Shown: one piece after another, positions 14,976 through 44,213 of the stretch
Position numbering within the stretch: the first letter of the stretch is position 1
Layout of the letters: every line of letters starts with the position of its first letter
Source of the DNA: Bacillota bacterium
GTDB taxonomy: Bacteria > Bacillota > Limnochordia > DTU080
Length of the DNA stretch: 45,621 bases
Reading direction: 5' to 3'
Assembly: GCA_012840225.1 (NCBI GenBank)
Contig: DULU01000076.1
Coordinates: 1-45,621 of the forward strand
The notes under the pieces: generated by a model
The model's database searches: none
What the model saw: only the letters and a program-made list of their open reading frames with translations
Told to the model about the DNA's origin: nothing
Program-made: the position numbers and the translations under genes

Positions 14976-15860
14976 ATGGGAGCAACTATCATCGACGGCA
15001 AGGCCATTGCCAAAGAGATACGGGCCGGATTGGCCGGGAGGGTGGAGTGCCTGAAACAGAGCGGCGTCTCCCCGGGCCTGGCTGTAGTCCTGGTAGGCGA
15101 CGACCCGGCTTCACAGATCTATGTGCGCATGAAGGAAAAAGCCTGCCGGGAACTGGGCATCACCTTCTTCCGCCACTGCGCTCCCACCGCTGTCGGTGAA
15201 AATTACCTCATCGATCTGGTAAAGGAGCTGAACGCCGACGCCCGGGTCCACGGTATATTGGTGCAGCTGCCCCTGCCGGCCGGTCTGAATCCTTTTACCA
15301 TCGTAAAGCAGATATCGGCGGCGAAAGATGTGGACGGCTTTCATCCGGAGAACGTCGGCCGCCTGTGCACAGGTGTCGGGGGAGGATTCATTCCTTGCAC
15401 TCCGGCAGGGATCCTCAAGCTGTTGGAGATATCCGCCGTGCCCATCAGCGGCGCCAGAGCCGTAGTGATAGGTCGGAGCAACATCGTCGGGCGGCCGACG
15501 GCCATGCTTCTGCTGCACGAGCACGCTACGGTGACCATCTGCCACACCCGCACCGTCAATCTGGCGGAGGAGTGCCGGCGGGCGGATATCTTGATCGCTG
15601 CCGCCGGCTCCCCGCGGCTTGTGACCGGCACCTGGATCAAGCCGGGAGCGACGGTGATCGATGTCGGCATAAACAGGCTGAGCGACGGCCGCCTGGTTGG
15701 GGATGTGGCTTTTGATGAGGCGGCGGCTGTGGCCGGGAAGATCACTCCGGTGCCCGGCGGAGTGGGGCCGATGACCATTGCCATGCTGATGAGCAACACC
15801 GTGCTGGCGGCCGAGCGGAGCCTGGCCAGTCGGGGAGCGGTGGCCGAATCAGAAGCGTAA
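14976..15860 (+). CDS. folD: bifunctional methylenetetrahydrofolate dehydrogenase / methenyltetrahydrofolate cyclohydrolase
   Basis: A 294-residue cytosolic enzyme interconverting 5,10-methylene-THF, 5,10-methenyl-THF and 10-formyl-THF with NADP(H). Family signatures: VLVGDDPASQIYVRMKEKAC with the catalytic Lys after YVRMK, VQLPLP, KDVDGFHPENVGRL, PCTPAGIL, the cofactor loop VIGRSNIVGRP, and PVPGGVGPMTIAML at the C-terminal end. GGAGG precedes the ATG by about six bases. In acetogenic or syntrophic Clostridia this enzyme also serves the Wood-Ljungdahl methyl branch, but nothing nearby shows which. Its TAA directly abuts the stop of the opposite-strand gene. Confidence 0.95.
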   Translation: MGATIIDGKAIAKEIRAGLAGRVECLKQSGVSPGLAVVLVGDDPASQIYVRMKEKACRELGITFFRHCAPTAVGENYLIDLVKELNADARVHGILVQLPLPAGLNPFTIVKQISAAKDVDGFHPENVGRLCTGVGGGFIPCTPAGILKLLEISAVPISGARAVVIGRSNIVGRPTAMLLLHEHATVTICHTRTVNLAEECRRADILIAAAGSPRLVTGTWIKPGATVIDVGINRLSDGRLVGDVAFDEAAAVAGKITPVPGGVGPMTIAMLMSNTVLAAERSLASRGAVAESEA

Positions 15861-39475: not shown

Positions 39476-39519
39476 ATCGTAGTGTTGCCGAAAGCGTTTT
39501 GGGAAAGGTGTGCACATAG

Positions 39520-39814: not shown

Positions 39815-40837
39815 ATGGAAGAGGTATCAGGCTCGTTGAGGTATGGCCGGCAAATCGGGCGGGTAGAGTTGCAAGCCGGAGCCGTGCTGGCGCCAATGGC
39901 CGGCTTTACCGACACCCCCTTTCGCCTGTTATGCAAAAGGTATGGAGCGGCACTGGTCTATGGCCAGCTGGTGAGCGTCAAATCGATCATCTACGGCAAC
40001 TGCCGCGCCGCCGAATTGCTTGATTTCCTGCCGGAGGAGAAACCTATTGCCGTGCAGCTTTTCGGGGCCGAGCCCCGGGAAATGGCCACCGCCATAAAGA
40101 TGATCACGAACCAGATGGCTCCCGACCATCTCCCGGACATCATCGATATCAACATGGGCTGCCCGGTACCGAAAGTGGTGAACAGCGGCGCCGGCTGTGC
40201 GCTGATGCGAGATCCCGGGCTGGCCGCCGCAATGGTGGCGGCAGCGGCGGAAGCCACCGCCATCCCGGTCACGGTAAAGATGCGCTCCGGTTGGGACGCC
40301 CAGCACATCAACGCCCCGGAACTGGCCAAATTGGTCGAGATGGCCGGAGCGCAGGCGGTGACGGTGCATGCCCGCACCAGAGAGCAATTTTACAGCGGCC
40401 GGGCCGATTGGTCGATCATCAAAGAGGTTAAAGCAGCGGTCGACATTCCGGTCATCGGCAATGGAGACGTGGACTCGCCTGACTCCTTTGCCCAAATGCT
40501 GGCTGTCACCAGGTGCGATGCCGTGATGGTGGGCAGGGCCGCCCTAGGCCGCCCCTGGCTCTTCGCCGAGCTGAGCCCTTCCCGCCGGGACAGTTTTTCC
40601 CCTCCTCAGCCGGTTGAGGTGATCGCTCTGGCCATCGAGCACCTAAAGGCGGCGCTGCGCTATCATGGTCCGGAAGCTTTATATAAAATGCGCAAGCATC
40701 TCGCCTTCTATCTCAAAGGTTTGCGGGGTTCCCATCGCATCAAAGCGGCGCTGCTGCAGGCGTCCAATGAAGAACAGGCCCTTTCCCTTCTCACCGAATA
40801 CCAAAAATATCTTGCAGGCCTGGAGCAAAACGGTTAA
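39815..40837 (+). CDS. dusB: tRNA-dihydrouridine synthase (DusB-like)
   Basis: A 340-residue FMN enzyme reducing uridines in tRNA D loops with NADPH. Signatures: LAPMAGFTDTPFR, VQLFGAEP, DINMGCPVPKVVNSGAGCALM with the catalytic Cys of NMGCP, VTVKMRSGWD, VHARTREQFYSG, GNGDVDS, and VMVGRAALGRPWLF. GGAGG precedes ATG 39815; a longer frame to 39788 starts inside the terminator and is rejected. The promoter of the next gene overlaps its end. Confidence 0.93.
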   Translation: MEEVSGSLRYGRQIGRVELQAGAVLAPMAGFTDTPFRLLCKRYGAALVYGQLVSVKSIIYGNCRAAELLDFLPEEKPIAVQLFGAEPREMATAIKMITNQMAPDHLPDIIDINMGCPVPKVVNSGAGCALMRDPGLAAAMVAAAAEATAIPVTVKMRSGWDAQHINAPELAKLVEMAGAQAVTVHARTREQFYSGRADWSIIKEVKAAVDIPVIGNGDVDSPDSFAQMLAVTRCDAVMVGRAALGRPWLFAELSPSRRDSFSPPQPVEVIALAIEHLKAALRYHGPEALYKMRKHLAFYLKGLRGSHRIKAALLQASNEEQALSLLTEYQKYLAGLEQNG

Positions 40838-40840
40838 AAT
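40812..40840 (+). promoter_or_regulatory. promoter of the regulator/AAR-like trio
   Basis: TTGCAG at 40812-40817, 17-base spacer, TAAAAT at 40835-40840, overlapping the dus stop. The expected start near 40847 lies inside the TGTGCACA operator-like repeat. Confidence 0.6.
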
Positions 40841-40843
40841 AGG

Positions 40844-40863
40844 TGTGCACATATTTGTGCACA
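40844..40863 (+). promoter_or_regulatory. paired palindromic operator-like element TGTGCACA-TATT-TGTGCACA
   Basis: Two identical self-complementary 8-mers (40844-40851 and 40856-40863) are separated by TATT, so the whole 20 bases is also an inverted repeat. It covers the expected transcript start of the helix-turn-helix gene, an arrangement typical of a self-repressing regulator. Confidence 0.6.
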
Positions 40864-40901
40864 TTGTCCGGCGGTCAAGGTCGGAACAGAGGAGCCTGCA
40901 G

Positions 40902-41432
40902 ATGGACTTGATCAGGATCGGGGATAAATTGCTCAGCCGGCGCAAGATCATCAACTGCATCGACAGGATCCTGGAATTACGCTCCTCAGGTAAATCGCAA
41001 ATAGAAGTGGCCAATGAGCTCGCTATTGATCGGGCCTGGATCTCCAGGCTGGAGAGCATGGGCGAAGTGCGCAAAGGCGGCCGGGTGGCCGTAATCGGCT
41101 TTCCGGTGCAAAATCCGGCCGAGCTGCAGCAAGTAGCCGTGGAAGAAGAGGTCGAATTTCATCTCCTTTTGACCGACGAAGAGCGCTGGCGCTGGGCAGC
41201 CGGCTTCTCCGGAGCCGATATGTTCAACCGCCTGATGGAGATGATCATCTCCCTGAAAGACTTCGACACGGTCATTTTCCTGGGATCCGATATGCGCATC
41301 AGGCTGGTGGAAGCCATCTTGGGCCGTGACATGGTCATAGGTGTGGAGCTGGGCACCTCGCCGATCAAAGGCGATGTTTATGTCTCGCCGGCCGAATTGC
41401 GGCAAATGATCAAAGCAGTGAAAGGAAGATGA
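40902..41432 (+). CDS. helix-turn-helix transcriptional regulator of the AAR-like trio
   Basis: A 176-residue protein. Residues 13-56 form a helix-turn-helix (LELRSSGKSQIEVANELAIDRAWISRLESMG), and GGRVAVIGFPVQNPAEL begins a C-terminal alpha/beta domain with VIFLGSDMRIRLVEAILG and DVYVSPAELRQMIKAVKGR, which could bind a ligand or subunits. I do not recognise a named family. ATG 40902 is set by AGAGGAG seven bases upstream; the longer open frame to 40665 lies within dus. Genes 41461 and 42431 follow closely on the same strand. The TGTGCACA pair just upstream is a plausible target. Confidence 0.6.
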   Translation: MDLIRIGDKLLSRRKIINCIDRILELRSSGKSQIEVANELAIDRAWISRLESMGEVRKGGRVAVIGFPVQNPAELQQVAVEEEVEFHLLLTDEERWRWAAGFSGADMFNRLMEMIISLKDFDTVIFLGSDMRIRLVEAILGRDMVIGVELGTSPIKGDVYVSPAELRQMIKAVKGR

Positions 41433-41460
41433 GTTACTTTGGCTGGTGAGGAGGCCGGTA

Positions 41461-42369
41461 GTGAAACATGTAGTAAGCGTCAGCATAGGTTCCTCGGAGC
41501 GCAATCACCGGGTGGATCTGAACATCAACGGTTGCCCGTTCATCATCGAGCGCATCGGCACCGACGGTGATCTGCAGCGCGCCATCGAGCTGATCCGGGA
41601 GTTGGACGGTAAAGTTGATGCCATCGGCATGGGCGGCATCGATCTTTATATATATGCAGGCGGGAAGAGATATACTTTCCGTGATGCCCAGCGCATGGCG
41701 CGCGCCGCCGCAAAAACACCCATTGTAGACGGCAGCGGGCTTAAAAACTCCCTGGAAAGATGGGTGGTCGATTACCTGGTCGACGAGCTCAAGATAGAAC
41801 TGAAAGGCAAACGGGTGCTCATGGCTTCCGCCGTGGACCGATTCGGCATGGCCGAATCCTTCGCCCGGCACGGCTGTCGGATGACTTTCGGTGATCTCTG
41901 CTTCGCCCTGGGAGTGCCTATCGGCATCCACTCCCTGAACACCCTCAGAATCATCGCCATGCTTCTGTTGCCCCTGATCACCAGATTGCCTTTTACCATG
42001 CTTTATCCCACCGGAGACAAACAGCATCAGATCACGCCGAAATATCGCAAATATTATGATTGGGCCGACATCATAGCCGGCGACTGGCATTATATCCGCC
42101 GCTATATGCCGGACAGCTTGCCGAATAAGATCATCCTGACCAATACCGTCACCCCGCAAAATGTGGAAGAGCTCCGCCGGCGCGGCGCGGCTATGCTGAT
42201 CACCACCACGCCGAACCTGTTGGGCCGGTCGTTCGGCACCAATGTGATCGAAGCGGCGCTGGTCTGCCTGGCCGCCCGTTCCCCGGATGAGATCAAACCG
42301 GAAGATTATATGCAGCTGTTGAAGGAGTTCAATTTCCGGCCCCGGGTGGAAGTGCTGAACCCTGCCTGA
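41461..42369 (+). CDS. conserved protein of unknown function, Rossmann-like (middle gene of AAR-like trio)
   Basis: A 302-residue protein beginning VKHVVSVSIGSSERNHRVD. Distinct blocks are IDAIGMGGIDLYIYAGGKRY-like (VDAIGMGGIDLYIY), a possible Rossmann turn at about 118-140 (RVLMASAVDRFGMAESFARHG), LPFTMLYPTGDKQHQ and VTPQNVEELRRRGAAMLITTTPNL. From memory such proteins are sometimes labelled quinate 5-dehydrogenase in databases, without evidence I know of; no shikimate or quinate enzyme motif is visible. It has no signal peptide. GTG 41461 follows GAGGAGG by seven bases, 28 bases after the regulator. Its place before the acyl-ACP-reductase-like gene suggests a shared pathway. Confidence 0.55.
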   Translation: MKHVVSVSIGSSERNHRVDLNINGCPFIIERIGTDGDLQRAIELIRELDGKVDAIGMGGIDLYIYAGGKRYTFRDAQRMARAAAKTPIVDGSGLKNSLERWVVDYLVDELKIELKGKRVLMASAVDRFGMAESFARHGCRMTFGDLCFALGVPIGIHSLNTLRIIAMLLLPLITRLPFTMLYPTGDKQHQITPKYRKYYDWADIIAGDWHYIRRYMPDSLPNKIILTNTVTPQNVEELRRRGAAMLITTTPNLLGRSFGTNVIEAALVCLAARSPDEIKPEDYMQLLKEFNFRPRVEVLNPA

Positions 42370-42430
42370 GCTTTTTGTCATCCCGGCTTTGTCGTGCCTC
42401 TTTGCCTAAACATGTATAGGAGGAAGTTTT

Positions 42431-43507
42431 TTGGAGAAATTCGCATTCATCATACACCCGCTCGAGACAAAAGACGTGGCGCGTAAATTCCCCTTCATCT
42501 CCAGATGGCCGGAAGCGCTGGTGGAAAAAGCACTGCAATTCGTGCCGCCCCTCACCGCTTCCCATATCACCGGAGTAAAATCGGCCACCGGCACGGAAGC
42601 GGAAGGCTGGTTCATCGGCGTGCCGCTCACACCCAAGATGATGATGAACGGCATGCCGGAGAAGCAAGTGCTGGCCAAGATCATCGCGGCCGGCAGAAAG
42701 GCGGAAGAGCATGGGGCGCAAATCGTGGGTCTGGGGGCTTTTACTTCCATCGTCGGGGATGCCGGGGTGACGATAGCCAATAACCTCAACATCGCCGTGA
42801 CCACAGGTAACACCTACACGGTGGCCACCGCCCTGCAGGGCGTGCAATACGCCGCCGGATTGATGGAGGTGGATCTGAGCCGCACCAGGGTAGCCATATT
42901 AGGTGCCACCGGTTCCATCGGCAAAGCCTGCGCCCGCATTATGGCCGGTTTCGGCTATCCTATCACCTTGGTGGCCCGCGACAAGAGGCGCCTGGAAGAT
43001 ACGCAGGCCATCATTTATGCCGAGAGCGGGAACCAGGCGAAGATTGAAACCGACTTGCCGCAGGCGGTAAGAGAAGCCGGGGTGGTCATCGCTGTGACCA
43101 GCGCTCTGGAAGCGGTGGTCGATGCCGCCGATCTGCAACCGGGGGCCATTGTGTGCGACGTAAGCCGGCCGCGCAATGTCTCCAAGCTGGTAGCGGAAAG
43201 CAGAAAGGATGTTTTGGTCTTTGAAGGCGGAGTAGTGGCGGTGCCCGGGGATGTGGACTTCCACTTCAATTTTGGTTTCCCGCCGCGCACCTCCTATGCC
43301 TGCATGGCAGAGACCATGATCCTCGCCCTGGAGCAGCGCTATGAAAACTACAGCCTGGGTCGGGACATCGAGCTGGATAAAGTGCGCGAAATCTCCCTTC
43401 TGGCCGAAAAGCACGGCTTTAAGCTGGCCGGTCTGCGCAGTTTTGAACGCGCCCTGACCGAGGCCGACATCATGGCCGTCAAACAGCAAGTCAAGGTGGG
43501 GAAGTAA
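42431..43507 (+). CDS. acyl-ACP reductase-like (AAR-like) NAD(P)-dependent oxidoreductase
   Basis: A 358-residue protein that I align by eye with cyanobacterial long-chain acyl-ACP reductase. Shared blocks are the opening FAFIIHPLETKDVARKFP, VGLGAFTSIVGDAG (cyanobacteria: SALGGFTSIIF), TTGNTYTVATAL (FTTGNTHTAY), the Rossmann loop GATGSIG at 158-164, VFEGGVVAVPGDVDF (NGGVVEHCFDIDW) and SYACMAETM (MFACFAEAM). The last carries C291, matching the catalytic Cys that forms the acyl-thioester in the cyanobacterial enzyme. The expected reaction is reduction of acyl-ACP or acyl-CoA to fatty aldehyde. TTG 42431 starts with AGGAGGAAG upstream, 61 bases after the middle gene. Substrate and partner are not known from sequence. 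Confidence 0.75.
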   Translation: MEKFAFIIHPLETKDVARKFPFISRWPEALVEKALQFVPPLTASHITGVKSATGTEAEGWFIGVPLTPKMMMNGMPEKQVLAKIIAAGRKAEEHGAQIVGLGAFTSIVGDAGVTIANNLNIAVTTGNTYTVATALQGVQYAAGLMEVDLSRTRVAILGATGSIGKACARIMAGFGYPITLVARDKRRLEDTQAIIYAESGNQAKIETDLPQAVREAGVVIAVTSALEAVVDAADLQPGAIVCDVSRPRNVSKLVAESRKDVLVFEGGVVAVPGDVDFHFNFGFPPRTSYACMAETMILALEQRYENYSLGRDIELDKVREISLLAEKHGFKLAGLRSFERALTEADIMAVKQQVKVGK

Positions 43508-43520
43508 TTCGTTTTTCGCC

Positions 43521-43550
43521 TTGACACTATCTCCTGTACTGATATATAAT
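43521..43550 (+). promoter_or_regulatory. strong sigma-A promoter of greA
   Basis: TTGACA at 43521-43526, an 18-base spacer, TATAAT at 43545-43550: both hexamers are consensus. The transcript would begin near 43557, leaving a leader of about 180 bases before greA. Confidence 0.8.
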
Positions 43551-43563
43551 CCTCCCTGAACAC

Positions 43564-43593
43564 GCGCTGATGGAAGTGGATTTCCATCAGCGC
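43564..43593 (+). ncRNA. structured 5' leader hairpin of greA
   Basis: GCGCTGATGGAA (43564-43575) and TTCCATCAGCGC (43582-43593) form a perfect 12-base stem with a six-base loop, starting a few bases after the expected transcript start. No T-run follows, so it is not a terminator. It may be an RNA-stability or regulatory element. Confidence 0.45.
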
Positions 43594-43736
43594 AGCCTGC
43601 TATATGGCCTTCACTAGTCATACCGGCACCGGTTAATACACGCGGTGTCATAGATGTCAAATGGTCCCTGCCATAACTCCAAGAGGGGTTTTGCTGGGGC
43701 TATTCTTTCGATTAAGAAAGGAAGTACGCCCTACAG

Positions 43737-44213
43737 ATGGCAGAAAAGGAAGTATTGCTCACACAAAACGGTTTGTCCAAGCTGGAAAAGGAACTTGAAC
43801 ATCTGAAAACGGTAAAGCGTAGGGAGGTGGCCGCGCGCATAAAACACGCGTTGGAGTTCGGTGATATCTCCGAAAACTCGGAATATGATGACGCTAAGAA
43901 CGAACAGGCCTTTATTGAGGGGCGCATTGCCAACCTCGAGAGGTTATTGCGCAACGCCAGGTTGATCGATGCGGAAGAAACCGACGAGAACGTCGTGACC
44001 GTCGGCTCCAAGGTGAAGCTGAAGGACCTGGAATTTGGCGATGAATATGAATATATCCTGGTAGGATCAGCGGAAGCGGATCCTTCTCATAACAAGATCA
44101 GCAATGAGTCTCCTGTCGGGCAGGCGGTGATCGGCAAGCAGGTCGGGGCGATCGTCGAAGTGAATGCCCCTGCCGGCTTGCTCAAGTTCCAGATCACTTC
44201 GGTTACCAGATAA
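43737..44213 (+). CDS. greA: transcription elongation factor GreA
   Basis: A 158-residue GreA. The N-terminal coiled coil ([24 protein letters not shown]) ends in [17 protein letters not shown], whose Asp and Glu at the hairpin tip enter the RNA polymerase secondary channel to trigger cleavage of backtracked RNA. The C-terminal FKBP-like domain has [22 protein letters not shown]. The ribosome site AAAGGAAG is further from the ATG than usual (about 13 bases), which, with the long leader, may allow regulation. lysS, often next in Bacillota, is not here. Confidence 0.96.

Follow-up and report, generated by a model that had tools for sequence, protein, structure and literature searches.

The paired palindrome at positions 40844–40863 of the stretch of DNA analysed here (45,621 nucleotides, in the following called the window) is very probably the operator of the helix-turn-helix (HTH) protein encoded directly downstream, and this protein most likely acts from it as a repressor. 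Both parts of this reading come from the comparison of sequences. The element lies over the promoter of a three-gene operon (the trio) consisting of the regulator gene, a gene here called gene 2 and an acyl-thioester reductase gene. Comparison with other genomes further indicates that the same site controls genes away from the HTH operon, which are not visible from the window. The features concerned are the following.

40844–40863, plus strand: operator candidate TGTGCACA-TATT-TGTGCACA, that is TGTGCACATATTTGTGCACA (from sequence and conservation)
40812–40817, plus strand: -35 hexamer of the trio promoter, TTGCAG, within the 3' end of dusB (from sequence; 17 bases to the -10 hexamer)
40835–40840, plus strand: -10 hexamer TAAAAT, including the dusB stop codon TAA at 40835–40837 (from sequence)
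40902–41432, plus strand: HTH regulator, 176 aa, proposed repressor (XRE-like HTH at about 13–54, Rossmann-like alpha/beta domain at about 58–176)
41461–42369, plus strand: gene 2, 302 aa (predicted fold nearest acyl-ACP reductase)
42431–43507, plus strand: gene 3, stand-alone acyl-thioester reductase of the AAR family (matches to TIGR04058, 6jzq and 4ppm)

The element, its promoter and its conservation

Sequence, coordinates and the TTGCAG-17-TAAAAT promoter of the paired palindrome are in the window as the first-pass annotation had described them. Three bases, AGG, separate TAAAAT from TGTGCACATATTTGTGCACA, and the expected transcription start at about 40847 is covered by the palindrome, with the start codon of the HTH gene following downstream at 40902. 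The dusB stop codon lies within TAAAAT, so the trio promoter overlaps the 3' end of dusB. It is not among the sites of a sigma-70 scan of positions 40600–43800, since TTGCAG falls under the cut-off of the scan. A perfect sigma-70 consensus promoter, TTGACA-18-TATAAT, is located at 43521–43550 between the trio and greA.

Within the window the 20-mer has one occurrence at up to three mismatches (0.10 expected), and the 8-mer TGTGCACA has four (0.35 expected). Single half-sites lie at 39509–39516, between a LysM/peptidase gene and dusB, and at 15364–15371. In the whole 3.55 Mb genome the exact 20-mer is found at 40844–40863 only; with up to three mismatches allowed there are 10 places, against one for a reversed control pattern. 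A copy with one mismatch (C101:24507, before araB) was taken as chance, as it is located within an Aldolase_II coding sequence, and the inspected places with two or three mismatches have no gene in common.

An HTH protein match was found in 83 of 100 genomes, including that of the window. Upstream DNA was taken from the HTH loci of these 100 genomes and from the best 80 of 114 orthologues found in a scan of named genomes, and the resulting 164 loci yielded 140 distinct ones with at least 100 bases upstream. The element was called where at least 13 of the 16 half-site positions matched at a spacer of 3 or 4 bases. By this measure it is present in 130 of the 140 distinct regions upstream of the HTH gene, counts that are not independent because most of the relatives are kin; the spacer has 4 bases in 98 of these elements and 3 bases in 32. 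Among the named genomes, 72 of the best 80 of 114 loci carry it (L182, with only 53 bases upstream, was counted as a miss), as do 51 of the 57 loci which were new to the analysis, and Markov-shuffled upstream regions of the same set reached this score in 5 of 1600 cases. Among the named genomes with the element are Moorella thermoacetica, Pelosinus fermentans, Anaerospora hongkongensis and Caloranaerobacter azorensis. On the tree of the HTH proteins, presence and absence of the element require at least six changes. A symmetric dyad over a promoter that is kept in this way upstream of the regulator gene is one of the features expected of a local HTH repressor. These results support the earlier view of the element as the best candidate operator in the window, and the comparison of orthologous upstream regions, which had been set beforehand as a check on it, did not refute it.

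Genes associated with the site in other genomes

A strict form of the motif was found in 67 of the 100 genomes (own genome included), the reversed control pattern in none. The motif occupies 98 distinct places at a density of one to three sites per genome. Fifty-eight of them have an HTH match at most 260 bp downstream. Another 36 are at the main second target, a gene for a transaminase/acyl-thioester-reductase fusion of the PtTamH layout: 32 are at most 260 bp upstream of a fusion match, and four (G044, G054, G060 and G064) precede fusion starts whose remainder is on a different contig, both pieces being assumed to form a single gene. One place precedes a gene 2-fusion operon (G007), and three are at no linked gene (G002:C150, G047:C29:29279 and G069:C75). 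Thus, 95 of the 98 places are at the HTH operon or linked enzymes, and the suspicion that such an element might be common at random sites in the genome was not borne out.

The association also holds when starting from the enzyme. A protein search alone detects the fusion in 51 of the 100 genomes at E 1e-130. Of the 50 testable fusion genes (that of G052, cut at a contig end, was left out), 45 have the site at most 250 bp upstream and four more (G007, G019, G040, G079) sit in an operon headed by the site; the fusion gene of G082 has none. The genome of the window has no fusion gene by the same search, and its best fusion-like stand-alone transaminase (on C98, a PigE-like sequence) has no site, so the known regulon here is the trio alone.

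In three genomes with the HTH gene only (G101, G103 and G100), the sole strict motif is located directly after a -10-like box and before fabH (L292, L293 and L294). Over its first 144 residues the L293 gene matches beta-ketoacyl-ACP synthase III (PRK09352, 209.7 bits; TIGR00747 fabH, 197.0 bits); these scores are under the cut-offs for whole proteins (249 and 292), which is to be expected of the fragment that was scanned. The genes at L292 and L294 share 78% identity with the L293 gene. As none of 22 fabH loci from 20 other genomes (own included) has the site, fabH was ruled out as a general target.

A wider draw gave the strict motif in 113 of 299 genomes, against three with the reversed control (G141, G238, G275). 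From it, 28 new loci (L320–L347) were sampled and assigned to genes: 21 are at HTH genes and four before transaminase or fusion genes, at L337 only gene 2 is visible, and nothing was recognised after the motif at L338 and L340. The genes at L321 and L322, with the motif upstream, are class III transaminase genes.

Whether the HTH gene itself carries the site goes along with the gene that follows it. Gene 2 comes next at 130 of the 140 loci, and 126 of these 130 have the site; so do both loci at which the fusion comes next. Without gene 2 or a fusion on the same strand after the HTH gene, the site is present in one of seven loci (one further locus is cut). At this one, L217, a class III transaminase gene is divergent from the HTH gene and the motif lies in between. 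Four of the seven have the order dusB-HTH-greA without gene 2 (L195, L200, L209, L211); three of these belong to the genomes with the motif before fabH, and the fourth genome, G102, has no motif and no fabH match at E 1e-20. Where the HTH gene stands alone without the site, the motif occurs elsewhere in four of six genomes (G007, G100, G101 and G103, but neither G102 nor G104), and in G007 this site is the one at the head of the gene 2-fusion operon. Four HTH promoters lack the site with gene 2 next (L018, L025, L048 and L242). In G048 and G022 (L018 and L025; also L163 and L212) the fusion gene directly after gene 2 has a perfect copy of its own, and G059 (L048) and G105 (L242) have the HTH gene and gene 2 with no strict motif anywhere in the genome. 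Finally, G032 (94% complete) and G070 (79% complete) have the motif and the fusion without an HTH match. With sites at the partner genes and missing at most partnerless HTH genes, the site tends to accompany the fatty-acyl enzymes more than the HTH gene itself, in keeping with a regulator that acts in trans.

The same distribution bears on the identity of the binding protein. The strict motif is present in 65 of the 83 genomes that have the HTH gene (counting that of the window) and in 2 of the 17 without it (Fisher p 4e-7, kinship ignored). This co-occurrence makes it improbable that the element is the operator of another factor, such as a global lipid or redox regulator, with the HTH protein merely co-regulated, although the two genomes with the motif and no HTH match, the 18 HTH-bearing genomes without a strict motif and the persistence of partnerless HTH genes without the site would all speak for such a factor. 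The concentration of one to three sites per genome on the HTH operon and its linked enzymes is unlike a global regulator, and the presence of the site elsewhere in most genomes whose lone HTH gene lacks it likewise points to the HTH product.

Architecture of the element and sense of control

The symmetric paired 8-mer of the first-pass annotation is found in the window, but among the relatives the fully symmetric form (16 of 16 positions) is only one variant. In the 130 elements the distal half is nearly fixed, being TGTGCACA in 110, and the proximal half is TGTGCACA in 24. Variants of the proximal half, which differ at positions 3–5, are TGTGAACA (22), TGTACACA (17), TGAGCACA (16) and TGTGTACA (14); its inner-end ACA is retained, with C at position 7 in all elements and A at positions 6 and 8 in 97–98%. 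A -10-like box stands 1–10 nt before the element in 124 of the 130 (the scan reached back only about 10 nt), most commonly at a gap of 3 nt (40) or 5 nt (38), and the gap is 2–5 nt in 98 of the 130 orthologous regions. At most of the fusion-enzyme promoters inspected the halves are swapped and the nearly fixed half adjoins the -10 box, consistent with a single two-fold operator that is read from either direction.

Spacer length goes along with residue 54 of the HTH protein in 129 loci (spacer 3: 26 Ala and 6 Gly; spacer 4: 4 Ala, 92 Gly and 1 unscored). This covariation of the spacer with a hinge residue was dropped as an inherited association, because the tree has only four well-supported independent contrasts, with residue 54 differing in about 0.7 of them.

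We propose that the HTH protein, probably as a dimer, binds the two TGTGCACA half-sites, which have a centre-to-centre distance of 12 bp (or 11 bp), approximately one helical turn, and that the bound protein would block initiation by RNA polymerase. As the element is located just after the -10 hexamer and over the transcription start, a protein sitting there would keep the polymerase from starting. This would shut off the operon of regulator, gene 2 and acyl-thioester reductase and, in other genomes, also fabH or the transaminase/reductase fusion. Sensing is likely to be the task of the Rossmann-like C-terminal domain, and the repressor may be released by acyl-ACP or acyl-CoA, or by a derived aldehyde or amine; we hold the identity of this ligand with much less confidence than operator and repression. 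The repression mechanism itself is an ordinary one.

That the HTH protein is instead an activator at this element we regard as very unlikely. The sign of control cannot be read from the HTH class alone and the -35 hexamer of the own promoter is weak, but the element lies downstream of the -10 hexamer and over the start site, where a bound protein normally blocks the polymerase. Furthermore, 103 of the 130 element-bearing orthologous promoters have an extended TGn -10, though the own trio promoter is without it.

Least credible of all is a 5' mRNA hairpin for stability or start control, which was considered because the two halves form an inverted repeat around a 4-base loop: the own 20-mer allows an 8-pair stem and is terminator-like on the minus strand (4 sites found against 3.0 expected in the scan of 40600–43800), and the fold of the leader starting at 40847 has -17.7 kcal/mol (z -1.77) and includes 5 pairs of the element, but pairing and compensation are missing, with all eight pairs kept in just 35 of 130 elements, a change on both sides in 3 cells, changes concentrated in the proximal half (133, against 25 in the distal half), the nearly fixed half mostly adjoining the -10 box at the fusion promoters, and transcription expected to begin inside the first half, so that we rejected it.

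Proteins of the regulon and comparison with known systems

Among 43 members of the proposed repressor family, 32 match HTH_3 and 30 match HTH_31 at E up to 0.01, which identifies the HTH domain; the window protein itself has no family match at this limit. Its AlphaFold model (pLDDT 94) has helices at 13–28, 33–40 and 44–54, and the C-terminal domain is Rossmann-like according to the model. A fold search with the protein gave designed Rossmann proteins at the top (Z 7.2) and no informative relative. The recognition-helix region, DR-x-x-IS-RLE, is strongly conserved in the 43 members: R44, S48 and E51 are invariant and D43, R49 and L50 are kept in at least 90%.

Gene 3 matches 6jzq (E 2.8e-30) and 4ppm (E 1.2e-37). 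It resembles the cyanobacterial AAR (6jzq) over residues 14–334: its YACMAET aligns with FACFAEA, which holds the catalytic cysteine (AAR C294), and its GATGSIG with GATGDIG, a GxxGxxG nucleotide motif. In 24 gene 3 sequences the cysteine pattern is found in 22, with C291 invariant in all 24, and the nucleotide pattern in 21. Unlike AAR itself, gene 3 stays under the cut-off of TIGR04058 (137.7 against 449.7 bits), and is therefore AAR-like rather than that equivalog. Gene 2 belongs to no Pfam or NCBIfam family. Its predicted fold ranks nearest to 6jzq (Z 14.3, rmsd 4.4 over 250 residues), followed by a carmabin-pathway domain (13.0) and glutamate dehydrogenases (10.7). Its likeness to AAR is one of fold only: a motif search found the AAR cysteine and GxxGxxG in none of 39 members, and homology to AAR by sequence was rejected, as the profile comparison with gene 3 was not significant. 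An AAR-nearest fold without catalytic cysteine or nucleotide motif suggests that gene 2 is a non-catalytic partner of gene 3.

The fusion enzyme has about 880 aa, with Aminotran_3 at 25–416 (one member scanned) and an AAR-like reductase at the C-terminus, matched in 10 of 12 mapped fusion loci; the stretches of L018 and L021 stop short of this domain. The ACM cysteine motif is present in all 30 loci L252–L281 (29 by eye, one by pattern) and the nucleotide motif in 29 of the 30. An N-terminal class III transaminase followed by an AAR-like domain with the cysteine is the TamH-type arrangement.

A wider reading can be offered tentatively, and we consider it possible rather than probable: an undescribed regulator family of anaerobic Bacillota may sense fatty-acyl thioesters and, through one operator, set the split between fatty-acid synthesis and fatty aldehydes or fatty amines, the branch being formed by the AAR-like reductase, gene 2 and the class III transaminase, with a rewiring to fabH in three genomes. 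If true, this rewiring from the amine branch to fabH would expose the ancestral acyl signal of the regulator. The trio, unnamed, widely conserved and often located between dusB and greA, would gain a regulatory logic and a pathway, and an uncharacterised HTH family would be tied to enzymes with a known role in making fatty aldehydes and amines. The results suggest that many anaerobic Bacillota make a fatty aldehyde or amine product under dedicated control, and the predicted regulon is open to a single binding assay.

In the literature, with most subscription journals not covered, no description of the regulator family, its operator or its regulon was found among the matches listed. Matches to the motif string were unrelated among those listed, and a search aimed at a lipid-type regulator of such enzymes found nothing relevant. 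Archaeal EnfR/Tfx-type and XRE-type regulators (8hnp, which we take to be EnfR or Tfx; 3vk0; R-M controller proteins) show weak similarity to the HTH protein, mostly within the HTH (best E 1e-4), and differ from it in the C-terminal domain and the operator. For EnfR, see PMC10570040.

PtTamH of Pseudoalteromonas tunicata, with the order transaminase then thioester reductase, converts fatty aldehydes to amines (PMC9594044). For the natural fusions TfFusion, TmFusion and TsFusion (Thermaerobacter, Thermincola), transaminase activity was tested and the reductase role predicted (PMC10829540). The fusion of the regulon resembles all of these in its N-terminal class III transaminase, C-terminal AAR-like reductase and ACM cysteine motif, whereas in the window genome the reductase is a separate gene and there is no fusion. 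Both papers are about the enzymes: the word "regulator" is absent from PMC9594044, and "operon" appears once in PMC10829540. A further relative of the fusion enzymes is KecF (PMC6498172), and a revision concerning PigE is given in PMC8341465. In both NCBIfam and PDB the fusion enzyme matches PigE of the prodigiosin pathway (PDB 4ppm, NF053554) best, but PigE has the opposite domain order, reductase then transaminase. The fusion scores 542 and 559 bits, under the NF053554 cut-off of 850, and so is not PigE itself.

FapR, FabT and FadR are autoregulated bacterial repressors of lipid synthesis. The system described here is like them in having a local operator over the promoter, a small HTH regulator and fatty-acyl targets (fabH in three genomes), and small-molecule control is to be expected for this regulator, too. 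It is unlike their architectures in the predicted joining of an XRE-like HTH to a Rossmann-like domain, and unlike them also in its operator, TGTGCACA-N3/4-TGTGCACA, and in its main targets, which are acyl-thioester reductases and transaminases.
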